Shown piece by piece: positions 1,196-60,000 of a DNA stretch of 64,000 nucleotides. The stretch lies in assembly GCF_003368325.1 (NCBI RefSeq), contig NZ_CP031467.1, positions 2,666,001 to 2,730,000 on the forward strand. Reading direction: 5' to 3'. How positions within the stretch are numbered: the first letter of the stretch is position 1; every line of letters begins with the position of its first letter. Below the pieces are notes generated by a model that was not told the origin of the DNA, did no database searches, and saw only the letters and a program-made list of their open reading frames with translations. This DNA is from Paraburkholderia caffeinilytica (GTDB lineage: Bacteria > Pseudomonadota > Gammaproteobacteria > Burkholderiales > Burkholderiaceae). The translations under genes were made by a program, and so were the position numbers.

Positions 1196-1763
1196 ACGGC
1201 AGAAGGGCTAACGACGTGATGGGAGGCGCGCGGTGCCGATTTTAGGGCAGGGCTGCAGAAAGCGTGGGGCAATAGTACCAAACGCGCTTCGCCGCTGGGC
1301 TGGCCATTGCACCCTGTGCGAGTAGTGAAGCCGGCGGTGCCGGAATTAGGATTAGGAATAGTCTTGCACAAGAATGCTTACTTCTGACACTGTCCGTCCC
1401 TAATTGTTCAATATCATTCTGCACGCGGGGAAATTTTCCGCATGACAGCCTTCAGGGCCGCTAGCTCGGCTGGGACCGGGGTAAGTGCTTTGCATGGGAC
1501 TGGAGTAAGAGCTTTGCATGGGACCTGAGTAAGCGCTAAAGCGCTAACTCAGGTCGACGGCTTTGCATGGGACCTGAGTAAGCGCTAAAGCGCTAACTCG
1601 GGTCGACACAGCCAGCTTTTTCCGCTTGCGGTAGCATGGCGGCCTTGGCGTGTGCCGCAGCGGCCATGCTTTCTATCGTGTCGTACGAGGCAGTCTGCCT
1701 TGGCGGCGTGGAATAGCAGGGCCGGCTGCGCCGTTAACCTTTCTTAGCTTGCGTTGACCTGTC
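1196..1763. other. 568-nt divergent intergenic region between pqiA and cybB
   Basis: I see no credible gene here. The region holds a cluster of the dispersed hairpin element (two half copies and two full copies, 1471-1604). Further right is an imperfect hairpin at about 1635-1672 formed by agcatggc and gccatgct. Promoters for the divergent pqiA and cybB genes must lie here, but I cannot point to convincing -35/-10 pairs. Confidence 0.7.
1471..1604 (+). repeat. cluster of dispersed hairpin element: two half copies plus two full copies
   Basis: Two 24-nt left-half units (1471-1494 and 1495-1518) are followed by full copies whose hairpins span 1522-1555 and 1571-1604, 49 nt apart. A full copy is a 9-bp outer stem (gacctgagt / actcaggtc), an A/A mismatch, an inner 5-bp stem agcgc/gcgct and a taaa loop. 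The second copy has one T-G wobble in the outer stem (right arm actcgggtc). Each full copy begins with ATG GGA CCT GAG TAA (1518-1532 and 1567-1581). Related single copies lie at 10196 and 59963. I do not recognise the family by name. Confidence 0.85.
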
Positions 1764-2324
1764 ATGGCACTCAATCCTTCTTTCGGCGGCCGGGAGTCGT
1801 ACACGCGGACCGCCATAGCCTTTCACTGGCTGATCGCGCTGCTGATCGTGTGCGGCTTCGCGCTCGGCTGGGTGATGACCGACATCCCCGGCTTCACGCC
1901 CACCAAGCTGCGCTACTTCTCCTGGCATAAATGGATCGGTTGTACGGTGTTCGCGCTCGCCGTGCTGCGCATTCTGTGGCGCGCTACCCACGCGGGCCCG
2001 CCCATGCCGCGCCGCATGCCGGCCTGGCAACGCGGCGCCGCGCATCTCACGCATTTCCTGCTCTACGTGCTGATGATCGTGATTCCGGCCTCTGGCTATC
2101 TGTATAGCTCGGCGGCCAACATACCGGTGGTGTACCTCGGCCTGATTCCGCTGCCTCGCCTGATCGCACCGGATCCGCATCTCAAGGAGTTGCTGAAGAA
2201 CGTGCACATCGCATTGAATTACACGTTGCTCGTGCTGGTCGCGTTGCACGTCGCGGCGGCGCTCAAGCATCAATGGTTGGACCGCGACGGCCTGTTGTCG
2301 CGCATGCTCCCTTTCATCAAATAA
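1764..2324 (+). CDS. cybB: cytochrome b561 family protein
   Basis: The product is a 186-residue, four-helix membrane dihaem cytochrome of the prokaryotic b561 family, which moves electrons between quinone and a periplasmic partner. Haem-ligand candidates are H21 in the first helix (AFHWLIALL), H55 in SWHKWIG, and histidines in the last helix near NVHIALN and ALHVAAALKH. Length matches the family (about 175-190). It is followed after 8 nt by a yceI gene, the same pairing as yceJ-yceI in E. coli, so it probably heads a three-gene operon. No strong Shine-Dalgarno precedes this ATG, so the start is probable rather than certain. Confidence 0.92.
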   Translation: MALNPSFGGRESYTRTAIAFHWLIALLIVCGFALGWVMTDIPGFTPTKLRYFSWHKWIGCTVFALAVLRILWRATHAGPPMPRRMPAWQRGAAHLTHFLLYVLMIVIPASGYLYSSAANIPVVYLGLIPLPRLIAPDPHLKELLKNVHIALNYTLLVLVALHVAAALKHQWLDRDGLLSRMLPFIK

Positions 2325-2332
2325 GGATAACC

Positions 2333-2896
2333 ATGAAAGTTTCGTTTTATCGCTACATGCTCGCCGCGTTCGCCGCGGCCTCGCTGACCGCAGCCGGCAG
2401 TGCGCTGGCCCAGGTCGACGTCGCGAAGAGTTCGGTGACGGCAACCTCGAAGCAGATGAACGTGCCGGTGGAAGGCAAGTTCGGCAAATTCACGGCGCAA
2501 GTGAAGTTCGATCCGGCAAAACCGGCCGAGGGCAGTGCGCAGTTCAGCATCGACGTGGCCAGCTACGATCTCGGCGACGAAAGCTATAACGACCAGGTGC
2601 GCGGCAAGGACTGGTTCGACGCGAAGACCTATCCGACTGCAACGTTCGTGTCGAGCGCGATCGCGCCGGCCGGCGGCAGTCAGTACAAGGTCACCGGCAA
2701 GCTGACCATCAAGGGTAAATCGCAGACCGTCGTGGTGCCGGTCACGGTCACCCAGCAGGGCGCGACCCAGACGTTCGACGGCTCGCTGCCGATCAAGCGC
2801 TCGCAATTCGACATCGGCACCGGCGAATGGAAAGACACCTCGGTGGTCGCCGACGACGTGGTGATCAAGTTTCGTATCGTCGCAGCACACAAGTGA
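2333..2896 (+). CDS. yceI: YceI family periplasmic protein (copy 1)
   Basis: The 187-residue protein starts at an ATG preceded by aaggataacc, 8 nt after cybB. A signal peptide is evident (positively charged start, hydrophobic core, cleavage near ALAQ-VDV at residue 26). The mature part is a YceI-like lipocalin-fold beta barrel, a family that binds isoprenoid or other amphiphilic ligands in the periplasm. Its motif region [20 protein letters not shown] and the TFVSS strand are typical. Together with cybB and the next gene it forms a compact operon. The ligand is unknown. Confidence 0.9.
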
Positions 2897-2967
2897 CGTT
2901 CGCCGCGCCCTCCGCGCGCAGCCGCTTCCCTTTCAGTCGGGAATTCCGGAAACATAAGGAGCATGAA

Positions 2968-3549
2968 TTGAAAACATCCCTGTTGATCGCCGTCGGCGCA
3001 TTGGCTTCTTCTTTTTCGCTCGGCGCGTTTGCCGCTGCCGATACCTATCAGCTCGACCCGACTCACACGTATCCGAGCTTCGAAGCGGATCACTTCGGCG
3101 GCCTCTCGGTGTGGCGCGGCAAGTTCGTCAAGAGCGCCGGCACGGTCACGCTCGACCGCGCAGCGAAGACCGGCACGGTGGACGTCACGGTCGACCCGGC
3201 TTCGGTCGAAACCGGCAACACCAAGCTCGACGACCATCTGAAGACGGACGCATTCTTCGACGTGACCAAATATCCGTCGGTGACGTATAAGGGCACCGAT
3301 ATCAAGTTCGACGGCGACAAGCCGGTCGAAGTGGTCGGCAGCCTGACGATCCGTGGCGTGACCAAGCCGCTGAATCTGACGATCGAATCGTTCAAGTGCA
3401 TGCCGCATCCGGTGCTCAAGCGCGAAGTGTGCGGCGTGGAAGCGAGCGCTCATTTCAACCGCAACGACTATGGCTTGGATTTCGGCGCCAAGTACGGCTT
3501 CAGCATGGATACCAAGCTGCACATTCAGGCTGAAGGCATCAAGCAATAA
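2968..3549 (+). CDS. YceI family periplasmic protein (copy 2), TTG start
   Basis: This is a second YceI paralogue of 193 residues with a signal peptide ([14 protein letters not shown], cleavage near AFA-AAD) and the family opening [20 protein letters not shown] place the start at TTG 2968 because an AAGGAG Shine-Dalgarno (2956-2961) sits 6 nt upstream and the reading frame gives a complete signal peptide. The nearby ATG at 2963 only reads ATG-AAT-TGA. It is 71 nt downstream of copy 1 and followed by a strong terminator, so it ends the cybB operon. The two YceI copies are clearly diverged, not a recent duplication. Confidence 0.87.
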
Positions 3550-3626
3550 GCGCTTTAACGTGCCTTTTGCGTACTCGTATTGAATGTCACGGGTGGCGCG
3601 GCCATTGCGCCGCAACAAAAAAGAAG

Positions 3627-3664
3627 ACCGCTTTGTTCGCTTTTGCGACAAAGCGGTTTTTTAT
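3627..3664 (+). terminator. intrinsic terminator of the cybB-yceI operon
   Basis: A perfect 10-bp stem (accgctttgt at 3627-3636 with acaaagcggt at 3648-3657) is followed by an unbroken T tract and attg. It lies 80 nt after the second yceI gene and before the MFS gene. Confidence 0.9.
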
Positions 3665-3842
3665 TGCCCGCTCGAAACGCCGGAAGCCTTGTGCAATGGC
3701 AACAAGCGATTTGGCGCTCGCGCCGTTTTAATTTTTCAGGTACATAGAGCGCTGACACCGCATTGGTTGTGCGCGCACCCAGTTCGGCAAGATCCGGCGT
3801 AAAACCTACGTAGAAAATATTTCGCGCGCATTGGAGATCTGC

Positions 3843-5120
3843 ATGAATGCAACGACAGCGGCAAATCTCGCGGGGAGCCGGCAGAATTCGTGGCGCGCGG
3901 TGGTCGCCGCCTCGATCGGCAACGCGCTGGAGTGGTTCGACCTGGTGGTGTACGGCTTTTTCGCGGTCACCATCGCCAAACTGTTTTTCCCGGCGGGTAA
4001 CGACACGGTGTCGCTGCTGCTGACGCTCGGCACCTTCGGCGTGTCGTTCTTCATGCGGCCGCTCGGTGCGATCGTGATCGGCGCTTACGCCGACCGCGCC
4101 GGACGCAAGGCGGCGCTCACGCTGTCGATCCTGCTGATGATGTGCGGCACGCTGATCATCGCGGTTCTGCCGACGTATCAGAGCATCGGCATTGCCGCGC
4201 CCGTGATTCTCGTGATGGCGCGCCTGATGCAGGGCTTTTCGGCGGGCGGCGAGTTCGGCAGCGCCACGGCCTTTCTCGCGGAACACGTACCGGGACGGCG
4301 TGGCTTCTTCGCGAGCTGGCAGGTCGCGAGCCAGGGGCTCACCACGCTGCTCGCGGCCGGCTTCGGCGTGCTGCTGACCGGCAAGCTGTCGCCGGAGCAG
4401 ATGGCTTCGTGGGGCTGGCGCGTGCCGTTCTTCTTTGGTCTTCTGATCGGGCCAGTGGCGTGGTACATCCGCACCAAACTCGACGAAACGCCGGAGTTCC
4501 TTGCGGCGGACACCACCACGACGCCGCTGCGCGACACGTTCACGAACCAGAAACTGCGCCTCCTGATCGCGATTGGCGTAGTCGTGCTCGGTACGGTGTC
4601 GACCTATCTGGTGCTGTTCATGCCGACTTATGGCGTGAAGCAGCTGGGGCTGGCGCCTTCGGTCGCGTTCGCGGCGATCGCGCTCACCGGCGTGATCCAG
4701 ATGGTGTTTTCGCCGCTGGTCGGACATCTGTCGGACCGTCACGGGCGCACCACGATCATGCTGATCTCGGCGTTGCTGCTTCTCGTGCTGATCAATCCGG
4801 CGTTCGTGTATCTGGTCGCGCATCCGACTTTCGGTACGCTGATTGCGCTGCAGGTCGTGTTCGGCTTTCTGATGACGGGTTACTTCGCGGCGCTGCCGGG
4901 TTTGCTCTCCGAGATGTTTCCGGTCCAGACGCGCACGACCGGCATGTCGCTGGCCTATAACATCGCCGTGACGATCTTCGGCGGCTTCGGGCCCTTCATC
5001 ATCGCGTGGCTGATCAGCTTTACCGGTTCGAAGGCCGCGCCGAGCTACTACATGATTCTTGCCGCGGCCGTGAGCCTGGTGGCGCTGATGGCGGCGCGGC
5101 GCAAGCTCGGGTTCCGCTGA
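3843..5120 (+). CDS. MFS transporter, metabolite:H+ symporter (MHS) family
   Basis: The 425-residue protein has twelve predicted transmembrane helices and MHS-family signatures: GNALEWFDLVVYGFFA at the first helix, the RPLGAIVIGAYADRAGRKAA loop, and MARLMQGFSAGGEFGSATAF. Members carry organic acids or betaines such as citrate, alpha-ketoglutarate, proline or shikimate. The substrate cannot be told from sequence and no catabolic neighbours give a hint. The start is ATG 3843 with GGAG at 3833-3836. It is transcribed alone between two terminators. Confidence 0.9.
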   Translation: MNATTAANLAGSRQNSWRAVVAASIGNALEWFDLVVYGFFAVTIAKLFFPAGNDTVSLLLTLGTFGVSFFMRPLGAIVIGAYADRAGRKAALTLSILLMMCGTLIIAVLPTYQSIGIAAPVILVMARLMQGFSAGGEFGSATAFLAEHVPGRRGFFASWQVASQGLTTLLAAGFGVLLTGKLSPEQMASWGWRVPFFFGLLIGPVAWYIRTKLDETPEFLAADTTTTPLRDTFTNQKLRLLIAIGVVVLGTVSTYLVLFMPTYGVKQLGLAPSVAFAAIALTGVIQMVFSPLVGHLSDRHGRTTIMLISALLLLVLINPAFVYLVAHPTFGTLIALQVVFGFLMTGYFAALPGLLSEMFPVQTRTTGMSLAYNIAVTIFGGFGPFIIAWLISFTGSKAAPSYYMILAAAVSLVALMAARRKLGFR

Positions 5121-5228
5121 AACGTTGCTGGGTTGTCCTGCCGCGCGGCAGGGCTCGGCGAGCGCGTAGCGAGCCGGTGCAGATGGCCGGTGCAACCAGG
5201 CAGGCAGTGCGGCAAAGCGGTAAACGTA

Positions 5229-5259
5229 AAAGGCCGGTTCGCGAGAACCGGCCTTTCTT
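5229..5259. terminator. bidirectional intrinsic terminator between the MFS gene and secF
   Basis: A 12-bp perfect stem (aaaggccggttc at 5229-5240 with gaaccggccttt at 5244-5255) has a four-base loop. T-rich DNA follows on the plus strand and an A tract precedes it, so it can end both the rightward transporter transcript and the leftward secF transcript. Confidence 0.88.
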
Positions 5260-5284
5260 ATTGCGACTTCCAGCTACAGCAAGC

Positions 5285-6235
5285 TCAAACCTGTGCGCCT
5301 GCGTTTGGATCGTCCGGATCGACGCGTTCCTTCTTGTCCTTGATCAGGTCTTCGCGCTTTACGCCGAGCCACATGGCGAGCGCCGCGGCGACGAACACCG
5401 ACGAGTAGATACCGAACAGAATACCGACCGTCAGCGCCAGAGCGAAGTAGTGCAGCGTCGGGCCGCCGAACAGGAACATCGACAGCACCATCATCTGCGT
5501 GCAGCCGTGGGTGATGATCGTGCGCGACATGGTGCTGGTGATCGCGTGGTTGATCACCTCGATCACGGTCAGCTTGCGTTCGCGGCGGAAGGTTTCGCGA
5601 ATCCGGTCGAAGATAACGACGGATTCGTTCACCGAGTAGCCGAGCACCGCGAGCACCGCGGCGAGCACCGACAGCGAAAACTCCCACTGGAAGAACGCGA
5701 AGAAGCCGAGAATGATGATCACGTCGTGCAAGTTGGCGATCACGCCGGCCACGGCGTATTTCCACTCAAAGCGGAACGACAGGTAGATCACGATGCCGAC
5801 CACCACGCAGGCCAGCGCGAGCAGGCCGTCGGTAGCGAGTTCCTTGCCGACCTGCGGGCCGACGAACTCGACGCGCTGCAGCTGCACTTGCGGATCCTGG
5901 CCCTTCAGCGCGCCCATCACCTGATCGCTCTGTTGAGCCGACGTGTAGCCTTGCTTGAGCGGCAGACGGATCAGCACGTCGCGCGAGGTGCCGAAGTTCT
6001 GCACCTGCGCGTCGGCATAGCCGAGCTTGTTGAGCGTGCCACGTACCGGTTCGAGCGGTGCGGCCCCCGGATACTGCACTTCGATGACCGTACCGCCGGT
6101 GAATTCCACCGACAGATGCAGCCCGCGATGCAGCAGGAAAAACACGGCGGCGACGAACGTCAGCAGCGAGATTGCGTTGAACAGCAACGCACGCTGCATG
6201 AACGGAATGTCTTTGCGAAAACGGAAAAATTCCAT
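5285..6235 (-). CDS. secF: protein translocase subunit SecF
   Basis: The 316-residue membrane protein has an N-terminal helix (about residues 17-36), a periplasmic domain opening with SVEFTGGTVIEV, and five further helices including GYSVNESVVIFDRIRE and SMSRTIITHGCTQ-like motifs of the SecD/SecF RND-type fold. With SecD it pulls preproteins through SecYEG on the periplasmic side using the proton-motive force. It begins 18 nt after secD and ends at the bidirectional terminator, so it is last in the yajC-secD-secF unit. Confidence 0.97.
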   Translation of the reverse strand: MEFFRFRKDIPFMQRALLFNAISLLTFVAAVFFLLHRGLHLSVEFTGGTVIEVQYPGAAPLEPVRGTLNKLGYADAQVQNFGTSRDVLIRLPLKQGYTSAQQSDQVMGALKGQDPQVQLQRVEFVGPQVGKELATDGLLALACVVVGIVIYLSFRFEWKYAVAGVIANLHDVIIILGFFAFFQWEFSLSVLAAVLAVLGYSVNESVVIFDRIRETFRRERKLTVIEVINHAITSTMSRTIITHGCTQMMVLSMFLFGGPTLHYFALALTVGILFGIYSSVFVAAALAMWLGVKREDLIKDKKERVDPDDPNAGAQV

Positions 6236-6253
6236 GGTCTTGTTCTCCGGGAC

Positions 6254-8302
6254 TCAGCGGGATGAACCCGGTTTCTGCGGCGTGTTCGACGAACCCGACG
6301 CGTCGCGGCGGCGCACGGTCGGCTTGGCGCGCGCCTGGGCCGCAACTTTGGCTTTGGGCTTGGCGCTGGCCGCGGCGACGGCTCGTGCTGTGTCGGTCGC
6401 GGCGTCATCGTTGCCGAGGTAGGCGGCAGCGCCGTCGATGCCTTCCGGCTGCGGACGCCACACCTGACCGATGGCCAGCGACTTGAGCTTCTTCTTGCCG
6501 CCGTACCAGAGGTTCACGAGGCCACGCGAGAAGAACACGGCCGAGAACATGGAGGTCAGGATGCCGATACAGTGGACCATCGCGAAGCCGCGCACCGGGC
6601 CGGAGCCGAAGGCGAGCAGCGCGAGGCCGGCGATCAGCGTGGTGACGTTCGAGTCGAGAATCGTCGCCCATGCGTGCGCGTAGCCGTTCTGGATCGCCAG
6701 TTGCGGCGGCGCGCCGTTACGCAGTTCTTCGCGCACGCGCTCGTTGATCAGCACGTTCGCGTCGATCGCCATACCGAGCGCGAGCGCGATAGCGGCGATA
6801 CCCGGCAAGGTGAGCGTGGCCTGCAACATGGACAGCACGGCGATCAGCAGCAACAGGTTGACCGACAGGCCGATCATCGAGATCACGCCGAACAGCATGT
6901 AGTACGCGATCATGAAGACGGCGATTGCCGCGAAGCCCCATACCACCGAGTGGAAGCCCTTCTTGATGTTGTCCGCGCCGAGGCTCGGGCCGATCGTGCG
7001 TTCTTCGATGATGTCCATTGGCGCGGCCAGCGAACCGGCGCGCAGCAGCAGTGCGAGGTCGGCGGCGCCTTGCGGCGTGGCCTGGCCGGTGATCTGGAAG
7101 CGATCGCCCAGTTCCGACTGGATCGTCGCCACCGTCAGCACTTCGCCCTTGCCCTTTTCGAACAGCACCATCGCCATCGGCTTGCCGATGTTGTCGCGCG
7201 AGACGCTGCGCACCGCGCGGCCACCCGCCGAATCCAGCCGGATATTCACCGACGGACGCTGGTGCTCGTCGAAACCTGCCGACGCGTCGATGATGCGGTC
7301 ACCCGTGAAGATGATCTGCTTGCGCAGCAGGACCGGCGTCTGATTGCCTTGCGTGAACAGCTCGTCGCCCGGCGGCACCGGATCGGACGGATTCGGGTGC
7401 GTGTTCACCGGGTCGGCGAGGCGCGCTTCGAGCGTTGCCGTGCGGCCGATGATGTCCTTCGCCTTCGCCGTGTCCTGCACACCCGGCAGTTCGACGACGA
7501 TACGGTCCGAGCCTTGCTGCTGGATCACCGGCTCGGCCACGCCGAGTTCGTTCACGCGGTTATGCAGTGTGGTGATGTTCTGCTTGAGCGCTGCGTCCTG
7601 CACGGCTTTCTGCACCACTGGCGTGAACGTGCCGACCAGTTGCACCCCGCCGTCCGGGTTCGCTTGCGAGGCCCACTGGAGTTCGCTGATGCCGCGGCCC
7701 AGTTGTTTGGATGCCGCGTCCGCCGTAGCCTGGTCGGCGAAATTGATCACCACCGTCTGGTTGACGCGGTTCACGCCGCCGTCGCGGATGTTGTTGTCAC
7801 GCAGCATGGTGCGTGCATCCGATGCGTCGGAGTCGAGCTTCTTGTTCAGCGCGCCGGCCATGTCGACCTGCAGCAGGAAGTGCACGCCGCCGCGCAAGTC
7901 CAGGCCCAGGTACATCGGCAGCGCATGCAGGGCGGTCAGCCAGCGCGGCGACGCGCTTTGCAGGTTCAGTGCAACGATGAATTGCGGGTCGGTCGGGTCG
8001 CTGTTCAGCGACTTCTGCAACAGGTCCTTCACGCGCAATTGCGTGTCGGTGTCGAGGAGACGCACGCGGATGTTCGCGTTGGTCGACGAGTTGTCGAACG
8101 TGACGTCGTCAGGCTTGATCTGATTGGCGGCAAGCGCCGCTTCGACTGCCGACAGCGTGGTCGAGTCGAGCTTGACCGTTGCCTTGCCGCTCGACACCTG
8201 CACCGCCGGCGCTTCGCCGAACAGATTGGGCAGCGTGTACACGAGGCCGATGACCAGAGCCACCAGCATCACGGCGTATTTCCAGAGGGGGTAGCGATTC
8301 AT
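6254..8302 (-). CDS. secD: protein translocase subunit SecD
   Basis: This 682-residue SecD has the N-terminal membrane anchor, the MYLGLDLRGGVHFLLQVDM motif (around residue 130), the periplasmic P1 domain, and C-terminal helices with GMAIDANVLINERVREELR (around residue 530). It is longer than E. coli SecD (615). The extra length includes a C-terminal Ala/Lys/Arg-rich tail of about 50 residues (AKPKAKVAAQARAKPTVRRR) that looks disordered. It sits between yajC and secF, as expected for the SecDF-YajC complex. Confidence 0.97.
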   Translation of the reverse strand: MNRYPLWKYAVMLVALVIGLVYTLPNLFGEAPAVQVSSGKATVKLDSTTLSAVEAALAANQIKPDDVTFDNSSTNANIRVRLLDTDTQLRVKDLLQKSLNSDPTDPQFIVALNLQSASPRWLTALHALPMYLGLDLRGGVHFLLQVDMAGALNKKLDSDASDARTMLRDNNIRDGGVNRVNQTVVINFADQATADAASKQLGRGISELQWASQANPDGGVQLVGTFTPVVQKAVQDAALKQNITTLHNRVNELGVAEPVIQQQGSDRIVVELPGVQDTAKAKDIIGRTATLEARLADPVNTHPNPSDPVPPGDELFTQGNQTPVLLRKQIIFTGDRIIDASAGFDEHQRPSVNIRLDSAGGRAVRSVSRDNIGKPMAMVLFEKGKGEVLTVATIQSELGDRFQITGQATPQGAADLALLLRAGSLAAPMDIIEERTIGPSLGADNIKKGFHSVVWGFAAIAVFMIAYYMLFGVISMIGLSVNLLLLIAVLSMLQATLTLPGIAAIALALGMAIDANVLINERVREELRNGAPPQLAIQNGYAHAWATILDSNVTTLIAGLALLAFGSGPVRGFAMVHCIGILTSMFSAVFFSRGLVNLWYGGKKKLKSLAIGQVWRPQPEGIDGAAAYLGNDDAATDTARAVAAASAKPKAKVAAQARAKPTVRRRDASGSSNTPQKPGSSR

Positions 8303-8420
8303 GAGTGGTCCAACGGGAAGGTTGGCTTGGAAGCGATGCGTCCGGCGATGAGCGCGGGCAGTTCGGCGTTGTTTCGCGAGAACCGCCGGCGAGGCCGCGC
8401 CGGACGCGAGAGAGCAGGCC

Positions 8421-8956: not shown

Positions 8957-10342
<1,386 letters not shown>

Positions 10343-18900: not shown

Positions 18901-19083
18901 TTCTTCTGGTTTTTTTCATGGCTCGCGCCATAGAAGCCGGCTTGTTTTAATTCTTCCGCGCTTCTTCATACCCCGGCCATATAAGCTACTTTGGTTTGAA
19001 CCGCGCCGAGCAGCCCCTCTTGCGGCGCGGACGCCGCCCGGGTTCTATCCGGGGCGCAGCGTCGCTTTACGTACACTCCTTCC

Positions 19084-19175
19084 AGACGGCCAGACGGCCA
19101 GACGGCCAGACGGCCAGACGGCCAGACGGCCAGCCGCCAAGCGCCAAGCGCCAAGGGCCAAGCGCCAAGCGCCAG
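19084..19175. repeat. two adjacent short tandem repeats (8-bp and 7-bp units)
   Basis: Six exact copies of AGACGGCC (19084-19131) are followed at once by five copies of the 7-mer GCCAAGC (19136-19170, one with a terminal G) plus a partial unit. They lie in the 288-nt convergent spacer between ubiA and proC (18901-19188), which has no gene. Such slippage-prone tracts are likely to vary in copy number between strains. Confidence 0.95.
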
Positions 19176-19188
19176 CCACCAACCGCGC

Positions 19189-50120: not shown

Positions 50121-50145
50121 AGCCAGGTCGCAATCTGACCGTAAA

Positions 50146-51529: not shown

Positions 51530-51553
51530 TAGCGGTTTGATTTGGCGGTAAGC

Positions 51554-53473
51554 ATGACGGCAGATGAGCGCGACGCAGTGTTCGCGTTGCTCGACGATTG
51601 CGACGCGACGGCGGCGCGCCGTTCGAGTCGTCTGTACACGGGTTTTGTGCATGGACGGAGTTGCGCTGCGCCCGCGCAACTCGAAGCCGTGTGCGAGACC
51701 GTGGCCGCGGACACGCGGCGTGGTTTGCATGCCGTCGTGCTCGCCGACTACGAGTTTGGCCGGCATCTTCTCGACGGCGGCCTTCCTCACCGGGCATTGA
51801 AAGAAACGCAGCGTGGCGATGCCACGCTGCGTTTTTTATTGTTCGAACGTTGCGAGAAGCTATCGCGCGACGAGGTCGACGCCTGGCTCATGGCGCGCGA
51901 CGGCGCAGCAGCCGACGCGTCGGTAGCAGGGACCGCAAACGTGCGTGCGAGCGTCGATCCAAAGCAATTCAACGAAGCGATCGACGCGATCCATGCCGCC
52001 CTGCGCGCGGGCGATTCTTACCAGGTCAACTATACGTATCGGCTGGGTTTCGACGTATTCGGCTCGCCGACCACGCTGTATCGGCGCCTGCGAGCGCGTC
52101 AGCCGGTTCCCTACGGCGCGTTGATCGCGTTGCCGGGCGACGAGTGGGTGCTGTCGTGCTCGCCGGAATTGTTCATCGAGAAGGAAGGCGCCATGTTGCG
52201 CGCCCGTCCGATGAAAGGCACGGCGCCACGGTCGGCAGATCCTGACGCGGATCGCAATGCCGCCGACTTCCTCGCGAACGACCCGAAGAATCGCGCCGAG
52301 AACGTGATGATTGTCGACCTGTTGCGCAACGATCTGTCGCGCGTGGCGCAAACCGGCTCGGTCAATGTGCCGGCGCTGTTTTCGGTTGAGCCGTATGCGT
52401 CGGTTTGGCAGATGACGTCGACGGTGCATGCGACGTTGCGCGCCGGCACGTCTTTCGCCGAGATCCTGCGCGCACTGTTTCCCTGCGGCTCGATCACCGG
52501 CGCGCCGAAGCATCGCACGATGCAGTTGATCGAGGCGCTGGAAAGCACGCCGCGCGGCCTCTATACCGGCGCGATCGGTTGGCTCGACGCGCCCGCCCCC
52601 ACACTCACTGCTGCCGACACCCTCCCGGCGACTGCAAGCGAAAACACCTGCGGCGACTTTTGCCTGTCCGTCGCCATTCGCACGCTGACCTTGAAGCCGG
52701 CTGCGACGCCGGGCGCACTGAAAGGCACGATGGGCGTCGGCGCGGGCATCGTGCTCGACAGCGTCGCCGCCGACGAATATGCGGAGTGCCAATTGAAGGC
52801 CAGCTTTCTGACCGGCGCCGAGCCGGGTTTCGAGCTCTTCGAAACGATGCATGCGACGCAGGAAGAGGGGGTGCGGCATCTGTCGCGCCATCTTGCGCGA
52901 CTCTCGGCGAGCGCCGCGACGCTGGGTTTCAAACTCGGCGATGAAAATGAGATTCGCGCGCAAATCACGGAGAAATGTGCGGCGTTGCCAACGCAGACTC
53001 CACATCGCATGCGTCTCGCATTGAGCAAGAACGGCGCGGTACACATAACGGCGGCGGTGCTGACGCCGCTGGCCGACTCGACCGTCGGCGTGTTACTCGG
53101 ACCGGATCACCAATTCCCTGCGACGGACGCCAACGATCCGCTGCTGCGCCACAAAACCACGCGCCGCGCCGAATATGATCGCGGTTGGCGCGAAGCCGAA
53201 GCGAGGGGCGCGTTCGACACGCTGTTCTTCAACGAGCGTGGCGAGTTGACCGAAGGTGGCCGGTCGAACGTGTTTGTGAAGCTGGCGGGACGGTGGTGGA
53301 CGCCGCCATTGGAGTCGGGCGTGCTGCCCGGGATCATGCGAGGTGTGCTGCTGGAGGATCCCGGTCTTCATGCGGCCGAACGCGTGCTGACTCGAGTCGA
53401 TGTGCAGAATGCCGAGGCGCTTCTGGTGTGCAACGCACTGCGAGGCGCGGTAAGGGCGCACGTGCTGGGCTAA
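51554..53473 (+). CDS. pabB: fused aminodeoxychorismate synthase component I and aminodeoxychorismate lyase
   Basis: The 639-residue protein fuses PabB (residues 1 to about 415) with a PabC-like class IV aminotransferase fold (about 425-639). PabB marks are SYQVNYTYRLGF, RPMKGTAPR, NRAENVMIVDLLRNDLSRVA and FPCGSITGAPKHRTMQLIEALE. PabC marks are FELFETMHAT and TLFFNERGELTEGGRSNVFVKLAGRWWTPPLESGVLPGIMR. Together they take chorismate to p-aminobenzoate for folate, with a separate PabA glutaminase. An intrinsic-terminator-like hairpin lies inside the gene at 51804-51840. Confidence 0.93.
   Translation: MTADERDAVFALLDDCDATAARRSSRLYTGFVHGRSCAAPAQLEAVCETVAADTRRGLHAVVLADYEFGRHLLDGGLPHRALKETQRGDATLRFLLFERCEKLSRDEVDAWLMARDGAAADASVAGTANVRASVDPKQFNEAIDAIHAALRAGDSYQVNYTYRLGFDVFGSPTTLYRRLRARQPVPYGALIALPGDEWVLSCSPELFIEKEGAMLRARPMKGTAPRSADPDADRNAADFLANDPKNRAENVMIVDLLRNDLSRVAQTGSVNVPALFSVEPYASVWQMTSTVHATLRAGTSFAEILRALFPCGSITGAPKHRTMQLIEALESTPRGLYTGAIGWLDAPAPTLTAADTLPATASENTCGDFCLSVAIRTLTLKPAATPGALKGTMGVGAGIVLDSVAADEYAECQLKASFLTGAEPGFELFETMHATQEEGVRHLSRHLARLSASAATLGFKLGDENEIRAQITEKCAALPTQTPHRMRLALSKNGAVHITAAVLTPLADSTVGVLLGPDHQFPATDANDPLLRHKTTRRAEYDRGWREAEARGAFDTLFFNERGELTEGGRSNVFVKLAGRWWTPPLESGVLPGIMRGVLLEDPGLHAAERVLTRVDVQNAEALLVCNALRGAVRAHVLG
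51804..51840 (+). terminator. intrinsic terminator-like hairpin inside the pabB coding sequence
   Basis: A 14-bp perfect stem (aaacgcagcgtggc at 51804-51817 with gccacgctgcgttt at 51821-51834), a gat loop and a TTTTTTATT tail (51832-51840) sit about 250 nt inside pabB. The hairpin encodes KETQRGDATLR in the open frame. It satisfies every sequence requirement of a Rho-independent terminator; whether it acts during translation is unknown. Confidence 0.8.
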
Positions 53474-53545
53474 GGCGTAAAGGGCGGCAGCGGCGGCGTG
53501 AGGCAACCGCGCCCGAGCAATGTAGTCGGCAGTCCGACTGAGCGT

Positions 53546-54361
53546 TCAGAACGTGTGCTCAGGCCCGGGGAACGAGCCGTCCTTCACGGCACGCACATAC
53601 GCTTCCACGGCAGCCTGGATAGTCGGCTGCCCCTGCATGAAATCTTTCACGAAGCGCGGCCGCTTGCCTGGGAAAATCCCCAGCATGTCGTGCAGCACCA
53701 GCACCTGACCCGAGCAATCCACACCCGCGCCGATGCCGATTGTCGGAATCCGCAATTGTTTCGTGACTTCAGCGCCGAGCAGCGTCGGAATCGCTTCTAG
53801 CACGATCAGTTGGGCGCCCGCATTCTGCACGGCGAGCGAGTCGCGCAGCACCTGGCTCGCGCCGGCGTCGGTCTTGCCCTGCACCTTGAAGCCGCCGAAC
53901 GCATGCACCGATTGCGGCGTCAGGCCGACGTGCGCGCACACTGGAATCGATCGTTCGACCAGAAAGCGCACCGTGTCCACGAGCCACTCGCCGCCCTCGA
54001 GTTTCACCATCTGCGCGCCGGCGCGCATGAGCTCCACCGAACTCCTGAAGGCGTCCTCCGGCGTGCCGTACGTGCCGAACGGCAGGTCGGCGACCACCAG
54101 CGCCGAGGGCCGCGCCCGCGCGACGTTCGCCGTGTGGTACGCGATGTCGGTGAGCGACACCGGCAGCGTGGTCGTCTGGCCTTGCAGCACGTTGCCGAGC
54201 GAGTCGCCGATCAACAGCACGTCGACGCCCGAGCGATCCAGCAGCGCGGCGAAGCTCGCGTCGTAACAGGTCAGCATGGCGATTCTTTCGCCTGCGTCGC
54301 GCATCGCCTGCAGTTTCGGCACGGTGATGGCGTTCCGGCTCGCTTCCTGCAAATAGGTCAT
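53546..54361 (-). CDS. panB: 3-methyl-2-oxobutanoate hydroxymethyltransferase
   Basis: PanB adds a hydroxymethyl group to ketoisovalerate, the first step of pantothenate synthesis. The 271-residue protein shows [60 protein letters not shown] and [21 protein letters not shown]. It lies 35 nt after the deoxynucleoside kinase on the minus strand and closes the hda-to-panB run. It converges on pabB. Confidence 0.96.
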
Positions 54362-54396
54362 GGGGAAATCCGTTGGAAAGAAGAGAGGCGCGCCGC

Positions 54397-55077
54397 TTAA
54401 AGCGACGTGCCTTTGACAAAGAATTCCTTGCGGCCGCGCATGGTTTCGATGCGTTCGGCGAGTAGCGCAAGGTCCGCGTCCGAGTCGAGCGGATTCAGGT
54501 GTTCAGCGTTGACCGTCAGCACGGGCGTGCGGTCGTAGTGATAGAAAAACTCGTTGTAGGCATCGCAGAGCGCGTGCAGATACGCATCGGAAATCTGCAA
54601 TTCCATTGGCACGGCGCGCTTCTGGATGCGTGCGAACAGCACTTCAGGACTGGCTTGCAGATAGACCACGAAATCCGGCGCGGGCGCGCTCACGTCGAGC
54701 CGCGCGGCGAGGGCGCGATAAAGCTGCCACTCGTCTTCCTGAAGGGTCAGACGCGCGAAGATCTCGTTCTTCTGCGTCAGGAAATCGGCGATCAGCGGCG
54801 TACCCGCCACATGCGCGGCCGTCACGTTCTGGGCCTGCTGTGCGCGCTGCAAGGCGAAGTGCAATTGCGTGGGCAGCGCATAACGCGCGGTGTCGCGATA
54901 AAAACGCTCGAGAAAGGGATTGTCCTGCGGCCGCTCGAACACCTCCTGCATCGACCAGCGCTGGGCGAGCCGCCGGGCGAGCGAGGTCTTGCCGACGCCG
55001 ATCGGCCCTTCGATCGCGATATAGCCAAAGGGCGGCCGCAGATGCGGCGGGGTCACGGTGAGCGGCGGCGAATTCAT
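54397..55077 (-). CDS. deoxynucleoside kinase (deoxyadenosine/deoxyguanosine kinase-like)
   Basis: The 226-residue P-loop kinase has [18 protein letters not shown] (around residue 23), a [15 protein letters not shown] segment, [18 protein letters not shown], and a [17 protein letters not shown] lid region, as in the dNK/dGK family that phosphorylates deoxynucleosides. Its ATG overlaps the folK stop by four bases (ATGA), so the two are translationally coupled. The same folK-dNK-panB order occurs in relatives. Exact substrate preference is not known. Confidence 0.88.
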
Positions 55078-55622
55078 TCGCAACGGCCCTTGTCCACAGC
55101 CGGGGCGCCGGCTGCCAATGCATTGAGCATGGGACATTGGCAAGGACTCTTCACCTTTTCGATGCGTTGATCGCGCACGCCGTCGAGCAGCGCTTCGGCA
55201 CGACCGTATCGAGGGATGATCAGCGCCGCGTCGATCTCGACGAGCGGCACGAGTGCAAAGGCGCGCTCGGTCAAGCGCGGATGCGGCACGATCAGATCGG
55301 CTTCGTCGATCGATTGATCGCCGTATAGCAGGATGTCCAGATCGAGCGTGCGCGGGGCGTTGCGAAACGGCCGTTCACGGCCGAACTGATGCTCGATCTT
55401 GTGGCATAGCGCGAGCAGATGCCGCACGGGGAGCGTCGTTTCGACCTTCACGACGCAGTTGAAATAGTCGTCGCCGCCCGCGTCGATCGGGGCGGTGCGA
55501 TAGAAGCTCGACTTGGCGAGCACGGTGATGGTGTGCTGTTGGGCGAGGCACACCACCGCGTCTTTCAGGGTCTGGCGCGCGTCCCCGAGATTCGCGCCGA
55601 GGCCGAGATAAGCAACCGTCAT
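55074..55622 (-). CDS. folK: 2-amino-4-hydroxy-6-hydroxymethyldihydropteridine pyrophosphokinase
   Basis: HPPK transfers pyrophosphate from ATP to the pterin in folate synthesis. The 182-residue protein opens MTVAYLGLGANLGDARQTLKDA and has the signature FGRERPFRNAPRTLDLDILLYG and LIVPHPRLTERAFALVPL. It lies 48 nt after pcnB and overlaps the kinase gene by 4 nt. The window also holds the folate-related pabB-pabC fusion on the other strand, though not in the same operon. Confidence 0.96.
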   Translation of the reverse strand: MTVAYLGLGANLGDARQTLKDAVVCLAQQHTITVLAKSSFYRTAPIDAGGDDYFNCVVKVETTLPVRHLLALCHKIEHQFGRERPFRNAPRTLDLDILLYGDQSIDEADLIVPHPRLTERAFALVPLVEIDAALIIPRYGRAEALLDGVRDQRIEKVKSPCQCPMLNALAAGAPAVDKGRCE

Positions 55623-55670
55623 GGCATAACTTCCTGCAACTATCGTTCGACGGCAACAGCCGACGCTGCG

Positions 55671-57254
55671 TCAGTCTTCGTGCGAACCGTCGTGGCCCGC
55701 GTCGGTGGCTGTGCGTTCGGCTGGCGTGCCGCCCTCCATTCCGTCGCCCGGTTTGCGGCTCCTCGCGCCACTGCTGCGCCGCCGTCGTTTTCTGGGGCTC
55801 CGGTCCTTCCCGCTTTGCGTGAGCAATGTCTCCCGCGCAGCGACGTCTCCTTCGATGAACTCCGTCCACCACGCACCGACCGACTCGTCGAGTTCGCCCG
55901 ATTCGCAGCGCAACAGGAGGAAATCATACCCCGCTCTAAATCTTTGGTGTTCCAGCAGCTTCAGCGCGCTTCTTCCCGAGCGTTTCTCGAGGCGCAGCTG
56001 CAGACCCCAGATCTCGCGCATATCCGACGAAAAGCGCTTGTGGATGGCGAGCTTCTCGGTTTGCATGTCGAGGACCTCGTCCATCGCGCGATGCAGGGCC
56101 GGTACCGGGTATTCGCCGTTTGCTTCAAATTGTTGCCAGCGCGTCTGGACGTCGTGCCACAGCAGCGTGGCGAACAGGAAACCCGGCGAAACCGGCTTGC
56201 CGGCGCGCACGCGGGCGTCCGTGTTGGAGAGCGCGAGCGAGATGAATTTTTCGCCGATGGGTTGTTCCAGCACCACGTCGAGCAGCGGCAGCAGACCGTG
56301 ATGCAGGCCTTCCTGGCGCAGACGCTTCAAACAGGCGAGCGCGTGGCCCGATAGCATCAGCTTGAGCATCTCGTCGAACAGACGCGCGGCCGGCACGTTG
56401 TTGATCAGATCGGCCATTCTGGCGATCGGCGCACGGGTCGCGTCTTCGATCTCGAATTCGAGCTTGGCGGCAAAACGCACCACGCGGAGCATGCGCACCG
56501 GATCCTCGCGATAACGCGTGGCCGGATCGCCGATCATGCGCAACAGGCGCGCGCGCATGTCGGCCATGCCGTTGTGATAGTCCAGCACGGTTTGCGTGGC
56601 CGGATCGTAGTACATCGCGTTGATCGTAAAGTCGCGGCGCGTGGCGTCTTCGTGCTGCTCGCCCCAGACGTTGTCGCGTAGCACGCGGCCGCTGGCGTCC
56701 ACCGCGTGGGTGCGGCGGTCGAGCTCGTCGCGCTTCAGGCGACGCGGCGGCGCGGCGTTGGCCGCGGGCGGATCGACCAGCGCGCGGAACGTCGAGGTTT
56801 CGATGATTTCCTGGCCGAATTGCACGTGCACGATCTGAAACCGGCGGCCGATGATGCGGGCGCGGCGGAACAGCTTTTGCACCTGTTCGGGCGTGGCGTC
56901 GGTCGCGACGTCGAAGTCTTTGGGCTTGATGCCGAGCAGGAGATCGCGTACCGCACCGCCGACGATGAACGCGCGATGCCCCGCCTCCTGCAAACCTTCG
57001 GTGACGCGAATTGCGTTCTTCGAGATCAGCGACTGATCGATGCCATGCACGTCGTGCGGAATGATGACGGGCACGTCGGGATCGCGCACGGTTTTGGCGG
57101 CCGGGCGTGCCGGCTTGCGGCGCGCTTTGGCGGCGCTGGACGCGTGGCGTGCCGGTGCTTCGCCGGCTTCGTCTGCTTCGGCCTCGGCGGGCGGGGTGTC
57201 GTCAGCGGGCGCCGAGTCCTGGCCGAACAGCTTGCGGATAAGTTTTTTGATCAC
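55671..57254 (-). CDS. pcnB: poly(A) polymerase I
   Basis: The 527-residue enzyme adds 3' poly(A) tails that promote RNA decay. The nucleotidyltransferase motif AFIVGGAVRDLLLGIKPKDFDVATD (around residue 95-120) has the catalytic aspartates, followed by RRDFTINAMYYD and RYREDPVRMLRVVRFAAKL. N- and C-terminal ends are low-complexity basic segments (KARRKPARPAAK and RSPRKRRRRSSGARSRK), longer than in E. coli. Its ATG overlaps the HAD gene stop by 4 nt. Confidence 0.94.
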   Translation of the reverse strand: MIKKLIRKLFGQDSAPADDTPPAEAEADEAGEAPARHASSAAKARRKPARPAAKTVRDPDVPVIIPHDVHGIDQSLISKNAIRVTEGLQEAGHRAFIVGGAVRDLLLGIKPKDFDVATDATPEQVQKLFRRARIIGRRFQIVHVQFGQEIIETSTFRALVDPPAANAAPPRRLKRDELDRRTHAVDASGRVLRDNVWGEQHEDATRRDFTINAMYYDPATQTVLDYHNGMADMRARLLRMIGDPATRYREDPVRMLRVVRFAAKLEFEIEDATRAPIARMADLINNVPAARLFDEMLKLMLSGHALACLKRLRQEGLHHGLLPLLDVVLEQPIGEKFISLALSNTDARVRAGKPVSPGFLFATLLWHDVQTRWQQFEANGEYPVPALHRAMDEVLDMQTEKLAIHKRFSSDMREIWGLQLRLEKRSGRSALKLLEHQRFRAGYDFLLLRCESGELDESVGAWWTEFIEGDVAARETLLTQSGKDRSPRKRRRRSSGARSRKPGDGMEGGTPAERTATDAGHDGSHED

Positions 57255-57937
57255 GAGGGTTGAAAGAGTTCGAGGATGCGCCAGCCTTTGGCCTGCGCGT
57301 GGGCGCGCAATGTGTCGTCGGGATTGGTCGCGATCGGATCGGTGACCTTTTCGAGCAGCGGGATGTCGTTGTGCGAGTCGCTATAGAAATAGCTGTGCTC
57401 GAAGTCGCTCCAGCGCTTGCCGAGCGAAGCCAGCCACGCCTCGGTACGGATGATCTTGCCTTCCTTGTAGCTCGGCGTGCCGGTGGGGCGGCCGGTGTAC
57501 GGCGAATGCGGCTGGCCGTCGACGGTTTCCGCTTCGCAGGCGATCAGCGCGTCGACGCCGAACGCCTGAGCGATCGGGCGGGTGATGAACTCGTTGGTCG
57601 CGGTGACCACGCAGCAGAGATCGCCGGCTTCACGGTGCTCCCGGACCAGCTCCAGCGCGACCGGGAAGATGGCCGGCTTGATCACTTCATGCATGTACTG
57701 CGCGTGAAGATCGGCAAGCTGCGCGCGCGTGTACTTCGCGAGCGGTGTGAGCATGGCGATCAGATAAGCGTGAATGTCGAGCTTGCCGGCCTTGTAGTCG
57801 GCGAAAAAGCGGTCGTTTTCACGGGCGAAGTTTTCAGCGTCGACCATGCCTTGTTTCACCATGAAGCGGCCCCATTCGTGGTCGCTGTCAGTGGGGATGA
57901 GCGTGTGGTCGAGGTCGAAGAGTGCGAGGTTAGCCAT
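57251..57937 (-). CDS. HAD-superfamily hydrolase, subfamily IB (SerB-like phosphatase)
   Basis: The 228-residue protein starts MANLALFDLDHTLIPTDSDHEWGRF with the DxDxT nucleophile motif (D8, D10), then VTATNEFITRPIAQAFG (motif II), a conserved lysine in SYKEGKIIRTEAWL, and SDSHNDIPLLEKV (motif III). This is the HAD-IB type near phosphoserine or histidinol-phosphate phosphatases; the substrate is unknown. It overlaps hda by 8 nt and pcnB by 4 nt, so the three genes are translationally coupled. Confidence 0.9.
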   Translation of the reverse strand: MANLALFDLDHTLIPTDSDHEWGRFMVKQGMVDAENFARENDRFFADYKAGKLDIHAYLIAMLTPLAKYTRAQLADLHAQYMHEVIKPAIFPVALELVREHREAGDLCCVVTATNEFITRPIAQAFGVDALIACEAETVDGQPHSPYTGRPTGTPSYKEGKIIRTEAWLASLGKRWSDFEHSYFYSDSHNDIPLLEKVTDPIATNPDDTLRAHAQAKGWRILELFQPS

Positions 57938-58703
57938 GGGGGCCTATTTTACTTGAAGCGGCGGCGGGGGACGCGGATGAGGCGGACGAAGAGGGTGCCG
58001 TGCGCCGATCGTCAGCGTCGGGCGAGGCCAGCATGGTGCGCAGAAGCGGCAGCGTGACCGCGCGTTTCTGTTCGAGCGAGAAGCGGTCGAGCGCGTCGAG
58101 CAACGCCATCAGGCTCGGCATGTCGCGGCGAAAATGCGTGAGCAGGTAGGCGGGGACGTCGTCGGCGAGCATGATGCCGCGTTCGCGCGCCGCGTGTTTC
58201 AGCACGGCGGCCTTGCCTTCGTCCGGCAGCGGCGCGAGATGAAACACAAGGCCCCAGCCGAGGCGCGTGCGCAGATCTTCGCGTACGGTCATGCCGATCG
58301 GCGGGGCATTGCCCGCGGCGACGAGCGCGCTGGTGGGATGCGCGCGCACCTCGTTGAACAGGTTGAACACGGCGATCTGCTGCGCCGCGGACAGGCCGTC
58401 GCAATCGTCGATCGCATACAGCGCGACGCGCGGGTCGAAGGTGAAAGCGGCGAGGCTGCTCTGCGGACCGGCGAAGCGCGCATGGCCCGGCGGCGCTTCG
58501 TGAACCAGCGCCTGCAGCAGGTGTGTGCGGCCGCTGCCGGTTTCGCCCCAGACGTAGAACGTACGATCCGCCACCGGCCCGGCCGCGAGCGCGTTGTCGA
58601 GCTCGCGTAGCCGCGTGACCAGCTCGGCGTTGGCGCCGGCGAAGAAATTGTCGAATGTCGATGGCGGCGGGGTGCCGAGATCGAGCGTCAGTTGACGAAG
58701 CAC
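57930..58703 (-). CDS. hda: DnaA regulatory inactivator Hda
   Basis: Hda, with the beta clamp, stimulates ATP hydrolysis by DnaA and stops over-initiation. The 257-residue protein starts MLRQLTLDLGTPPPSTFDNF with a clamp-binding QLTLDL motif. It has a Walker A variant GETGSGRTHLLQAL (around residue 52), VALYAIDDCDGLSAAQQ as Walker B, and a C-terminal AAA+ lid. The last 25 residues are a Ser/Ala tail not found in E. coli Hda (233). It heads the hda-HAD-pcnB-folK run. Confidence 0.94.
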   Translation of the reverse strand: MLRQLTLDLGTPPPSTFDNFFAGANAELVTRLRELDNALAAGPVADRTFYVWGETGSGRTHLLQALVHEAPPGHARFAGPQSSLAAFTFDPRVALYAIDDCDGLSAAQQIAVFNLFNEVRAHPTSALVAAGNAPPIGMTVREDLRTRLGWGLVFHLAPLPDEGKAAVLKHAARERGIMLADDVPAYLLTHFRRDMPSLMALLDALDRFSLEQKRAVTLPLLRTMLASPDADDRRTAPSSSASSASPAAASSKIGPHG

Positions 58704-58809
58704 AGTAGGTTAATGCCGAAAATGAGGCTTAAGGCCGCAAATGGCCCGGATATCGCGCCCTAAAACGTCCGTGAACAGTCAATGAGCAGTTAGTGGCTCA
58801 GTCAGTGAC

Positions 58810-59934
58810 TCAGTTGTTGTAAAGCGTGCTCGTCAGATAACTTTGACGCAACTCGCGCATGGCGACCGACAGAATCGCGCTGACCGGCAGCGCCAGCAAC
58901 ACGCCGAAAAAGCCGAACAGCTGACCGAACGCGAGCAAGGCGAAGATGACCGCGAGCGGGTGCAGGCCGATCCGCTCGCCGACGAGCCGCGGCGTGAGAT
59001 AAAAGCTCTCCACGATCTGGCCGACGCCGTAAATCAACGCGACCGCGCCGAAGCCGTACCAGTCGCCGAACTGTAGCAGTGCGGCGAGCAGCGCCAGCGC
59101 GAGACCGGTTGCAAAGCCGACGTACGGGATAAACACCGCGAGGCCCGTGAAAATACCCACCGGCAGCGCGATCTCGAAGCGGGCGATGGTCAGCGCAATC
59201 GCATAATAGACCGCGAGCACCGCCATCACGAGGAGCTGGCCGCGCAGGTATTGCGACAGCATCTGGTCCATGTCGTGTGCGAGTTGCAGCGTCTTGTCGA
59301 GCCAGCGGCGCGGCACCACGATCTGCACGCGAGCGAGCATGCGGTTCCAGTCATACAGCAGATAAAACAGCACGAGCGGCACCATCACGAGGTTGCCGAC
59401 CACCGTCATCATCACGTTGCCGCTGGTGCGAACGGACGTCCACACATACAGCGCGACCTGCTGCGCGCTGCCTTCGAGCTGCCCCATCACGAGATCGCGG
59501 ATGCTGGCGAAATCGAGCGAGTCGGCGAGGCCCAATAAGGCAAGTTTCGGCTGCAGCCAGGCGCTCACGTGGGCGAACAGCACGGGCACCTGCTGCTTCA
59601 ACTGCGGCCCTTCTTTCTGGATGACGGCCAGCACCAGCAGCACGAGCAGCGTCATCATCAAGGAGAAGACCAGCATCATCAGCAAGGCGGCGAGTCCGCG
59701 CGGCACGCGCCGCCGTACCATCCAGGCGACGCCCGGTTGCAGAATGTACGCGAGAATGGCGCCGAGCAGGAACGGCGTGAGGACCGGACTCAGGAGCCAA
59801 AGCAGGATGCCGACGCCCAGCGCGATCGCCAGCCAGATCAGGGCGCGGCGCTGTACAGGCGTGAGGATCGAGGAGTTCTGTTGCAAAGTTGTTTCCCTGG
59901 TGTCGTCGCGACCGGCAGATTCACGATGATTCAA
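58810..59934 (-). CDS. AI-2E family transporter (PerM-like membrane protein)
   Basis: The 374-residue protein has about eight transmembrane helices, beginning RRALIWLAIALGVGILLWLLSPVLTPFLLGAILAYILQP, and the family stretch FIPYVGFATGLALALLAALLQFG followed by ESFYLTPRLVGERIGLHPLAVIFALLAFGQLFGFFGVLLALPVSA. PerM/YdgG-type proteins export solutes, sometimes AI-2 or Na+; the substrate here is unknown. Its position upstream of hda and divergent from purM is common in the group. Confidence 0.9.
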   Translation of the reverse strand: MNHRESAGRDDTRETTLQQNSSILTPVQRRALIWLAIALGVGILLWLLSPVLTPFLLGAILAYILQPGVAWMVRRRVPRGLAALLMMLVFSLMMTLLVLLVLAVIQKEGPQLKQQVPVLFAHVSAWLQPKLALLGLADSLDFASIRDLVMGQLEGSAQQVALYVWTSVRTSGNVMMTVVGNLVMVPLVLFYLLYDWNRMLARVQIVVPRRWLDKTLQLAHDMDQMLSQYLRGQLLVMAVLAVYYAIALTIARFEIALPVGIFTGLAVFIPYVGFATGLALALLAALLQFGDWYGFGAVALIYGVGQIVESFYLTPRLVGERIGLHPLAVIFALLAFGQLFGFFGVLLALPVSAILSVAMRELRQSYLTSTLYNN

Positions 59935-59962
59935 ATTCCAGCCAGACGGCCGGCAACTCTGT

Positions 59963-60000
59963 ATGGGACCAGAGTAAGCGCTGAAGCGCCAACTCTGGTC
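59963..60000 (+). repeat. dispersed hairpin element, single copy upstream of purM
   Basis: This copy reads ATG GGA CCA GAG TAA (59963-59977), then agcgctgaagcgcc, then actctggtc (59992-60000). The outer stem gaccagagt/actctggtc is perfect, with the variable pair A-T instead of T-A (1.5-kb copies) or G-C (10.2-kb copy). It lies 45 nt before purM. A second hairpin, ggtaaaat-cgc-attttacc (60008-60026), follows it. Confidence 0.85.

Follow-up and report, generated by a model that had tools for sequence, protein, structure and literature searches.

A REP-like, probably mobile palindrome family of Burkholderia sensu lato found 5' of purine-rich, Shine-Dalgarno-type sequences

We analysed a stretch of 64,000 nucleotides from the genome of Paraburkholderia caffeinilytica (contig NZ_CP031467.1, positions 2,666,001 to 2,730,000; the whole stretch is called the window below), in which a preliminary description had noticed a small hairpin repeated between genes. 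Copies of this hairpin are dispersed across the genome, keep a preferred orientation next to Shine-Dalgarno (SD) sequences, are exactly present or absent at orthologous sites, nest within one another and covary in their stems. We think that they probably form a non-autonomous mobile palindrome family of Burkholderia sensu lato, resembling repetitive extragenic palindromic (REP) elements, that inserts 5' of purine-rich, SD-type sequences. Three readings had been offered initially: the dispersal, the exact empty sites and the nesting speak for the first, a REP-like mobile palindrome; the second, a small-RNA hairpin, was not shown, and the third, a minimal open reading frame (ORF), fared badly.

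Searching the 8.3-Mb genome for the window pattern with up to 3 mismatches gave 63 places, and the reversed-pattern control gave none, so the pattern is not due to chance. A covariance model built from 33 copies of this genome (32 distinct) found 96 copies in 56 arrays, a count that may be low, with 150 of 4308 first-look candidates scored. Thirty-five arrays are single copies and 21 hold 2 to 12 units, always in one orientation within an array (21/21). Units follow head-to-tail at a period of 49 nt and are near-identical within arrays, the 12-unit array (L133) being the longest. The model also matched all 35 genomes of a genus sample, with 1 to 107 copies each (the lowest being a single weak match), and 60 of 150 Burkholderiaceae genomes in 9 of 25 genera, some of them weakly. 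Copy numbers in this family sample are limited by the candidates scored (46 for P. caffeinilytica there vs 96), and several genomes contribute a single weak match. None of 24 genomes from other families matched, and we found no match in phages. At least 80 loci came from named genomes, among the matches listed only from Paraburkholderia, Burkholderia, Caballeronia and Trinickia; because these loci were picked by the canonical core pattern, the sample favours well-kept copies, and of 260 matches the best 150 were aligned, reverse-strand echoes making up many of the others. A model search of the genome and its relatives was the check that the preliminary description had proposed.

The unit, about 49 nt long, has the layout (GCAAnnnnn)TTGC-ATGG-hairpin-GAC. 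In its hairpin, an A.A mismatch separates a variable outer stem of 9 bp from an inner stem of 5 bp, which closes a 4-nt loop (UAAA/UGAA-type); the flanks are TTGCATGG on the 5' side and GAC on the 3' side. In the ATGG foot, A1 and T2 are each kept in at least 90% of the 33 copies, and G3 and G4 are invariant. Across this alignment 95.1% of cells are paired and 8 of the 14 pairs have changed on both sides, which none of 500 shuffles reached; all six standard pair types occur at the variable stem pair. The covarying base pair first seen in four copies is thus confirmed genome-wide. Non-Watson-Crick pairs on the mRNA strand comprise 58 G.U vs 96 A.C; pair 15:28 alone accounts for 53 A.C and 8 G.U, and without it there are 50 G.U vs 43 A.C (these counts, like the codon counts below, cover copies of exactly 41 nt, 78 of the 96 from P. 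caffeinilytica and 137 of the 150 from named genomes). Because G.U is not in excess of A.C, the pairing evidence is not specific to RNA. The covariation in these alignments is strong and supports a hairpin, not specifically an RNA hairpin.

Filled and empty alleles of the same site could be compared at four places. Between atpA and atpG, aligned in 30 of 58 genus genomes, the element is present in 26, with some copies decayed, and absent from 4. The empty alleles lack exactly the 48-nt unit GCTTTGCATGG-34-GAC and retain ...CTTCGATC|AAGGAGC...ATG with the SD intact, so an SD was present at this site even in the absence of the element. A tree built for 28 of these genomes requires at least 3 changes for the empty state. 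L321 and L322 each have a filled genome as their sister, with starred support, and the empty label is no more clustered than expected by chance (77 of 500 shuffles were as low). At purM, where 13 of 30 loci could be anchored, 9 loci including that of P. caffeinilytica are filled and 4 are exactly empty. The unit at 10.2 kb in the window is absent from all six relatives read (five aligned loci and L451, read separately, with 6 of 30 loci anchored); the empty site forms a small inverted repeat (CCGGA-GAACAG-TCCGG, with close variants), and the 3' edge of the loop of this repeat is where the element lies. Before a thiolase gene, at least 14 of 30 loci are empty and have an SD-like motif. Elements also occur inside other elements. 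We counted 21 nested cases (8 in P. caffeinilytica, 13 in named genomes), 17 of them with 9/9 outer pairs when G.U is included; since the search demanded at least 8/9 outer pairs, this pairing is partly a matter of selection. The nested unit is usually TTGCATGG...GACAGCT, placed at GCT in the loop of the older one.

Read in the sense of transcription, most P. caffeinilytica arrays have the form ...GGTCGAC-A(nA)GGAGA(C)...ATG, with a few nucleotides between the end of the element and the SD of the gene that follows. In 49 of 56 arrays this gene shares the strand of the element; its start was called at a distance of 12-20 nt in 27 arrays and of 25-43 nt in a further 15, an outer 3' half intervening in several of these 15. 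The gene caller used for this genome favoured SD-bearing starts, and the one used for the named genomes was blind to the SD. Named genomes gave 85 arrays, 7 of which lay at locus edges and were dropped; 1 of the remaining 78 falls inside a called gene. Of these 78 arrays, 64 have their next gene on the same strand (vs 10712 of 20000 random intergenic placements), 31 have a start codon at 8-22 nt (vs 682 of 20000) and 47 have an SD-like motif within 16 nt (vs 1448 of 20000). Because most elements lie just 5' of a same-strand start codon, they are probably transcribed as leaders. Where GGAG follows the element it marks a gene start in 79 of 88 cases, vs 212 of 902 other intergenic GGAG; for AGGAGA the figures are 60/66 vs 55/84, and for [AC]AGGAGA 35/39 vs 38/48. 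The control rises as the motif becomes stricter, and much of the pattern could therefore stem from a preference for the SD sequence itself. None of this adjacency is visible from the window alone, because GGAG directly follows none of its copies.

The 49 downstream proteins (Pfam run on all, NCBIfam on the first ten; one without a Pfam match) are diverse and share no single pathway. They include enzymes of aromatic and fatty-acid catabolism (HpaE, HpaD, HPPD, PaaB, two thiolases, two FAA hydrolases, a CoA-transferase and an AMP-ligase), ABC transporters, LysR regulators, AtpG, AtpC, a FlgC-like protein and two ExbD, as well as MraZ, an Fe(2+)-trafficking protein and a GlgC-like protein.

With genes such as these downstream, the elements might instead be a cis-regulatory RNA family, a leader hairpin that is recognised by a protein or small RNA and was spread and kept by selection before catabolic and operon-internal genes. 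We regard this as unlikely. In its favour, the SD adjacency exceeds that of a bare GGAG and also that of AGGAGA, the downstream genes are often catabolic and include those for AtpG and AtpC, and the stems at atpG are paired above simulated drift: in 23 of the 26 orthologs (three with indels were excluded), 288 of 322 stem cells are paired, vs a simulated mean of 278, with 8 of 2000 simulations as high. However, the SD excess becomes small with the strict target [AC]AGGAGA, the downstream genes belong to no single pathway, the mRNA strand shows no G.U excess, and close relatives do without the element at the same genes (atpG, purM and the 10.2-kb site). Folding of 38 leaders left predicted SD accessibility unchanged, at 0.485 with the element, 0.519 with it removed and 0.471 with it shuffled, and no consistent sequestration of the SD was found in them. 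A host effect is possible, the stems at atpG being paired slightly more than modelled drift would give, but folding predicts no change in access to the SD. Rfam 15 gave no match at gathering score in the window. Outside it, the minus strand of the 12-unit array has a sub-threshold match to naRNA4 (RF02564), at 37.7 bits vs a gathering score of 59.5, which probably reflects generic double-palindrome similarity. naRNA4 itself originates from REP325.

If the family is instead a mobile palindrome, as we favour, the element would insert with a single orientation immediately 5' of a purine-rich tract, in most cases an SD, and because of that position would usually become the leader hairpin of the next gene. 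Later units would join head to tail or enter the loop of a unit already there. A trans-acting enzyme, likeliest of the Y1/HUH type (IS200/REP-type), would move the element in single-stranded form, using the DNA strand that has CTCC(T) 5' of it. Mobility of this kind fits because gain and loss are exact, orientation to the purine tract is constant and insertion into loops occurs.

Several results weigh against such movement. No GGAG-like motif directly follows 18 of 56 P. caffeinilytica arrays and 30 of 81 named arrays. We found no constant target-site duplication, with 1 shared nucleotide at atpG and CGGCA at purM, and an empty atpG allele could have returned by homologous recombination and not by excision. 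A search of this genome and its relatives, made for the Y1 family and not for other transposase families, yielded no candidate enzyme. The Y1 profile PF01797 matches one protein in P. caffeinilytica and has a match in all 58 genus genomes, and in the five sequences recovered from 30 scanned loci the common ortholog has neither the HUH histidines nor the catalytic tyrosine (the motif filter did not recover the other 25). This protein occurs in 134 of 150 Burkholderiaceae genomes and 18 of 25 genera, including genera without the element. The element is absent from all 11 Y1-type loci inspected (10 places, part of the strong Y1 matches in relatives), as well as from the 9-kb locus around the P. 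caffeinilytica gene. A REP-associated tyrosine transposase (RAYT) was accordingly rejected as a specific partner, its catalytic residues being lost and its range wider than that of the element. The Y1-transposase-like protein of P. caffeinilytica (G000:C2:1774634-1775338, equivalent to L047:3635-4339, minus strand) is 96-99% identical to the nearest genus members listed and, judging from its residues, is possibly a domesticated, non-catalytic transposase.

That the Y1 searches produced no enzyme would suit a passive spread of an old palindrome without any transposition enzyme, by tandem slippage, gene conversion and homologous recombination. The near-identical units at period 49 (12 of them in L133) would suit it too, and short shared ends such as CGGCA at purM permit deletion by slippage. 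Still, we judge passive spread improbable: it has difficulty accounting for the 56 unrelated sites, for insertion into hairpin loops, and for an accuracy of one nucleotide at atpG, where the shared sequence is 1 nt.

A more far-reaching version of the mobile-palindrome reading, which we put forward only tentatively, is that the palindrome homes to ribosome-binding sites and, by inserting, excising, stacking and nesting, supplies exchangeable leader hairpins, including at the operon-internal genes atpG, atpC, exbD and flgC. If true, homing would amount to a moving layer of post-transcriptional tuning common to Burkholderia sensu lato. Should our main reading hold, REP-type elements would not be confined to 3' ends and filler, with one family sitting at many translation start regions. 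Because natural filled and empty allele pairs exist at the same gene within the genus (atpG, purM and thiolase), both the effect of the hairpins on expression and the mover of transposase-less REP-like palindromes become testable.

The window itself carries the following members of the family.

1472..1489, + strand: 5' half-element GGGACCGGGGTAAGTGCT, its 3' half missing (read directly)
1494..1513, + strand: second 5' half-element ATGGGACTGGAGTAAGAGCT, without a 3' half (read directly)
1518..1558, + strand: full element 1, ATGG + 34-nt hairpin + GAC (covariance model, 70.0 bits)
1567..1607, + strand: full element 2, forming a tandem of 49-nt period with element 1 and having T.G (U.G) at the variable pair (68.4 bits)
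10190..10238, + strand: 10.2-kb insertion of about 49 nt, its ends ambiguous by 1-2 nt (model match 10196-10237, 57.4 bits)
59963..60003, + strand: element within the leader of a gene resembling purM (AIRS domains; ATG near 60046; 65.2 bits)

Direct reading placed the four full copies at 1518-1555, 1567-1604, 10196-10234 and 59963-60000, all on the plus strand, and by our gene calls none of the three arrays (L148-L150) overlaps a gene, in agreement with what had been reported of their positions, strand and intergenic setting. Each copy is laid out as ATGG followed by a 34-nt interrupted palindrome (35 nt at 10.2 kb), and then by GAC in three copies and GGC, at 60001, in the last. The outer stem had been given as gaccNgagt/actcN'ggtc. 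Its variable pair does read T/A, T/G, G/C and A/T across the four copies; the 10.2-kb copy departs from the form, reading GACCGGAAT...ACTCCGGATC with an A.C mismatch and one extra A. The first array begins earlier than its copies at 1518 and 1567, with the two 5' half-elements. At the orthologous site in P. fungorum (L257) there is an intact nested pair.

The preliminary description had also drawn attention to a five-codon frame, M-G-P-E-stop, whose differences among the four copies fell only at third codon positions. Across 183 copies (distinct within a locus) this does not hold: 75 encode MGPE*, 24 MGSE*, 14 MGLE* and 8 MGRE*, and the rest are various. At residue 3 we find P, S, L, R or Q, and the changes there go with the stem, not with synonymy; the synonymy of the window copies is a small-sample effect. 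Two outcomes had been named as fatal to the pattern, a lack of compensatory changes or the breakage of stem and frame together; the stem covariation held, and the frame is mostly not MGPE*. That the copies are minimal translated ORFs (ATG-Gly-Pro-Glu-stop), each with a structured stop region, is therefore very hard to credit, because codon 3 changes its amino acid freely along with the stem. The stop is retained in 173 and the ATG in 155 of the 183 copies, but both lie in bases that are conserved anyway, the ATG in the foot TTGCATGG and the TAA in the stem-mismatch-stem core, and an SD-like motif precedes the ATG in few of the printed P. caffeinilytica arrays (by eye, uncounted). A conserved peptide was likewise rejected, as stem changes alter the amino acid. 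On the sequence pattern, the frame is a by-product of stem and flank conservation.

We call the family REP-like, and not REP, because the foot of the hairpin has no GTAG head (its flanks are TTGCATGG and GAC) and no flanking RAYT was found, the element being absent from the 9-kb Y1 locus of P. caffeinilytica and from the 11 Y1 loci inspected; we also saw no inverted head-to-head pairs, of the kind in bacterial interspersed mosaic elements, in the 21 multi-copy arrays, and the stem is unlike that of CGTC REPs. To the GTAG REPs that go with RAYT/TnpAREP, as presented in PMC2817692 and PMC8266576, it is alike in being a high-copy, intergenic short palindrome (96 copies, 34-nt core) of non-autonomous behaviour. 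Its unit junctions often fall at GCT, and TnpAREP is described in PMC8266576 as cleaving at C|T. The CGTC-tagged REPs (Di Nocera et al. 2013, PMC3733652), which include Neisseria dRS3 and Rickettsia RPE-4/6, list TGTC as a tag variant and lack a known transposase. The Burkholderia element shares with them a short palindrome, a 4-nt loop and no dedicated transposase (here, the Y1 family only was searched), and its bottom strand bears a CCA tail, the top-strand ATGG being CCAT there. The bottom strand also has a candidate tag of TGTC type: it reads NGTC, with TGTC before most SDs and other first bases in linkers. However, CGTC REPs have stems of 8-9 bp that begin with two A-T pairs, are arranged head-to-head and, like REPs in general, are described as mostly 3' of ORFs, whereas the Burkholderia elements have a 14-bp interrupted stem (9 + 5, with the A.A mismatch) that begins with G-C, are head-to-tail and nested, and lie 5' of SDs. 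Burkholderia is not mentioned in the main text of PMC3733652, PMC2817692, PMC6006769 or PMC8266576, and we found no description of these sequences as a repeat family in the open-access literature.

They seem nevertheless to have been met before. PMC5968390 reports regular short repeats in P. terrae and P. oxyphila that CRISPRFinder called orphan CRISPR (clustered regularly interspaced short palindromic repeats), with Cas genes given as 'not identified'; P. terrae repeats 2, 3 and 6 and P. oxyphila repeat 23 in its Table 4 look like fragments of the hairpin family. If our reading is right, the family accounts for some 'orphan CRISPR' calls in Paraburkholderia. CRISPRFinder calls aside, the idea that the elements are orphan CRISPR arrays can practically be discounted, given that no Cas genes were identified for those arrays in that paper, that the 'spacers' in P. 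caffeinilytica are near-identical linkers and that 35 of 56 places hold a single unit.

Matches on plasmids were read in eight records, five of them almost without annotation. In none of the three annotated records does a gene start right after the matched part: in Caballeronia grimmiae the next gene is on the opposite strand, in P. phenoliruptrix a minus-strand gene precedes the element, and in Caballeronia SL2Y3, where the match covers part of a longer array, the annotated start lies about 125 nt beyond that part. By sequence, SL2Y3 has an ATG with AGGAG about 28 nt after the last unit, three of the eight records (L411-L413) have an SD-like motif and ATG directly after the element, and a further plasmid locus (L417) has a weaker purine tract and then ATG.

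In five Trinickia loci (L238, L207, L247, L268 and L209) copies stand before terminator-like or other sequences and not before SDs, and position may differ between genera. Three Caballeronia loci (L414, L211 and L252) have elements within or beside other repeated-looking sequence, GCAAAGAAAGTRAC..., next to a non-SD purine tract. A second perfect hairpin, GGTAAAAT-CGC-ATTTTACC, lies at 60008-60026 in the window, between the element and the purM-like start; it is nearly unchanged across the 13 aligned loci, with the element present or absent, and is possibly a separate regulatory site. Elsewhere in the window, positions 19074-19182 hold short tandem repeats of the 8-nt sequence CCAGACGG, after which comes another array of short repeats, around CCAAGCG.

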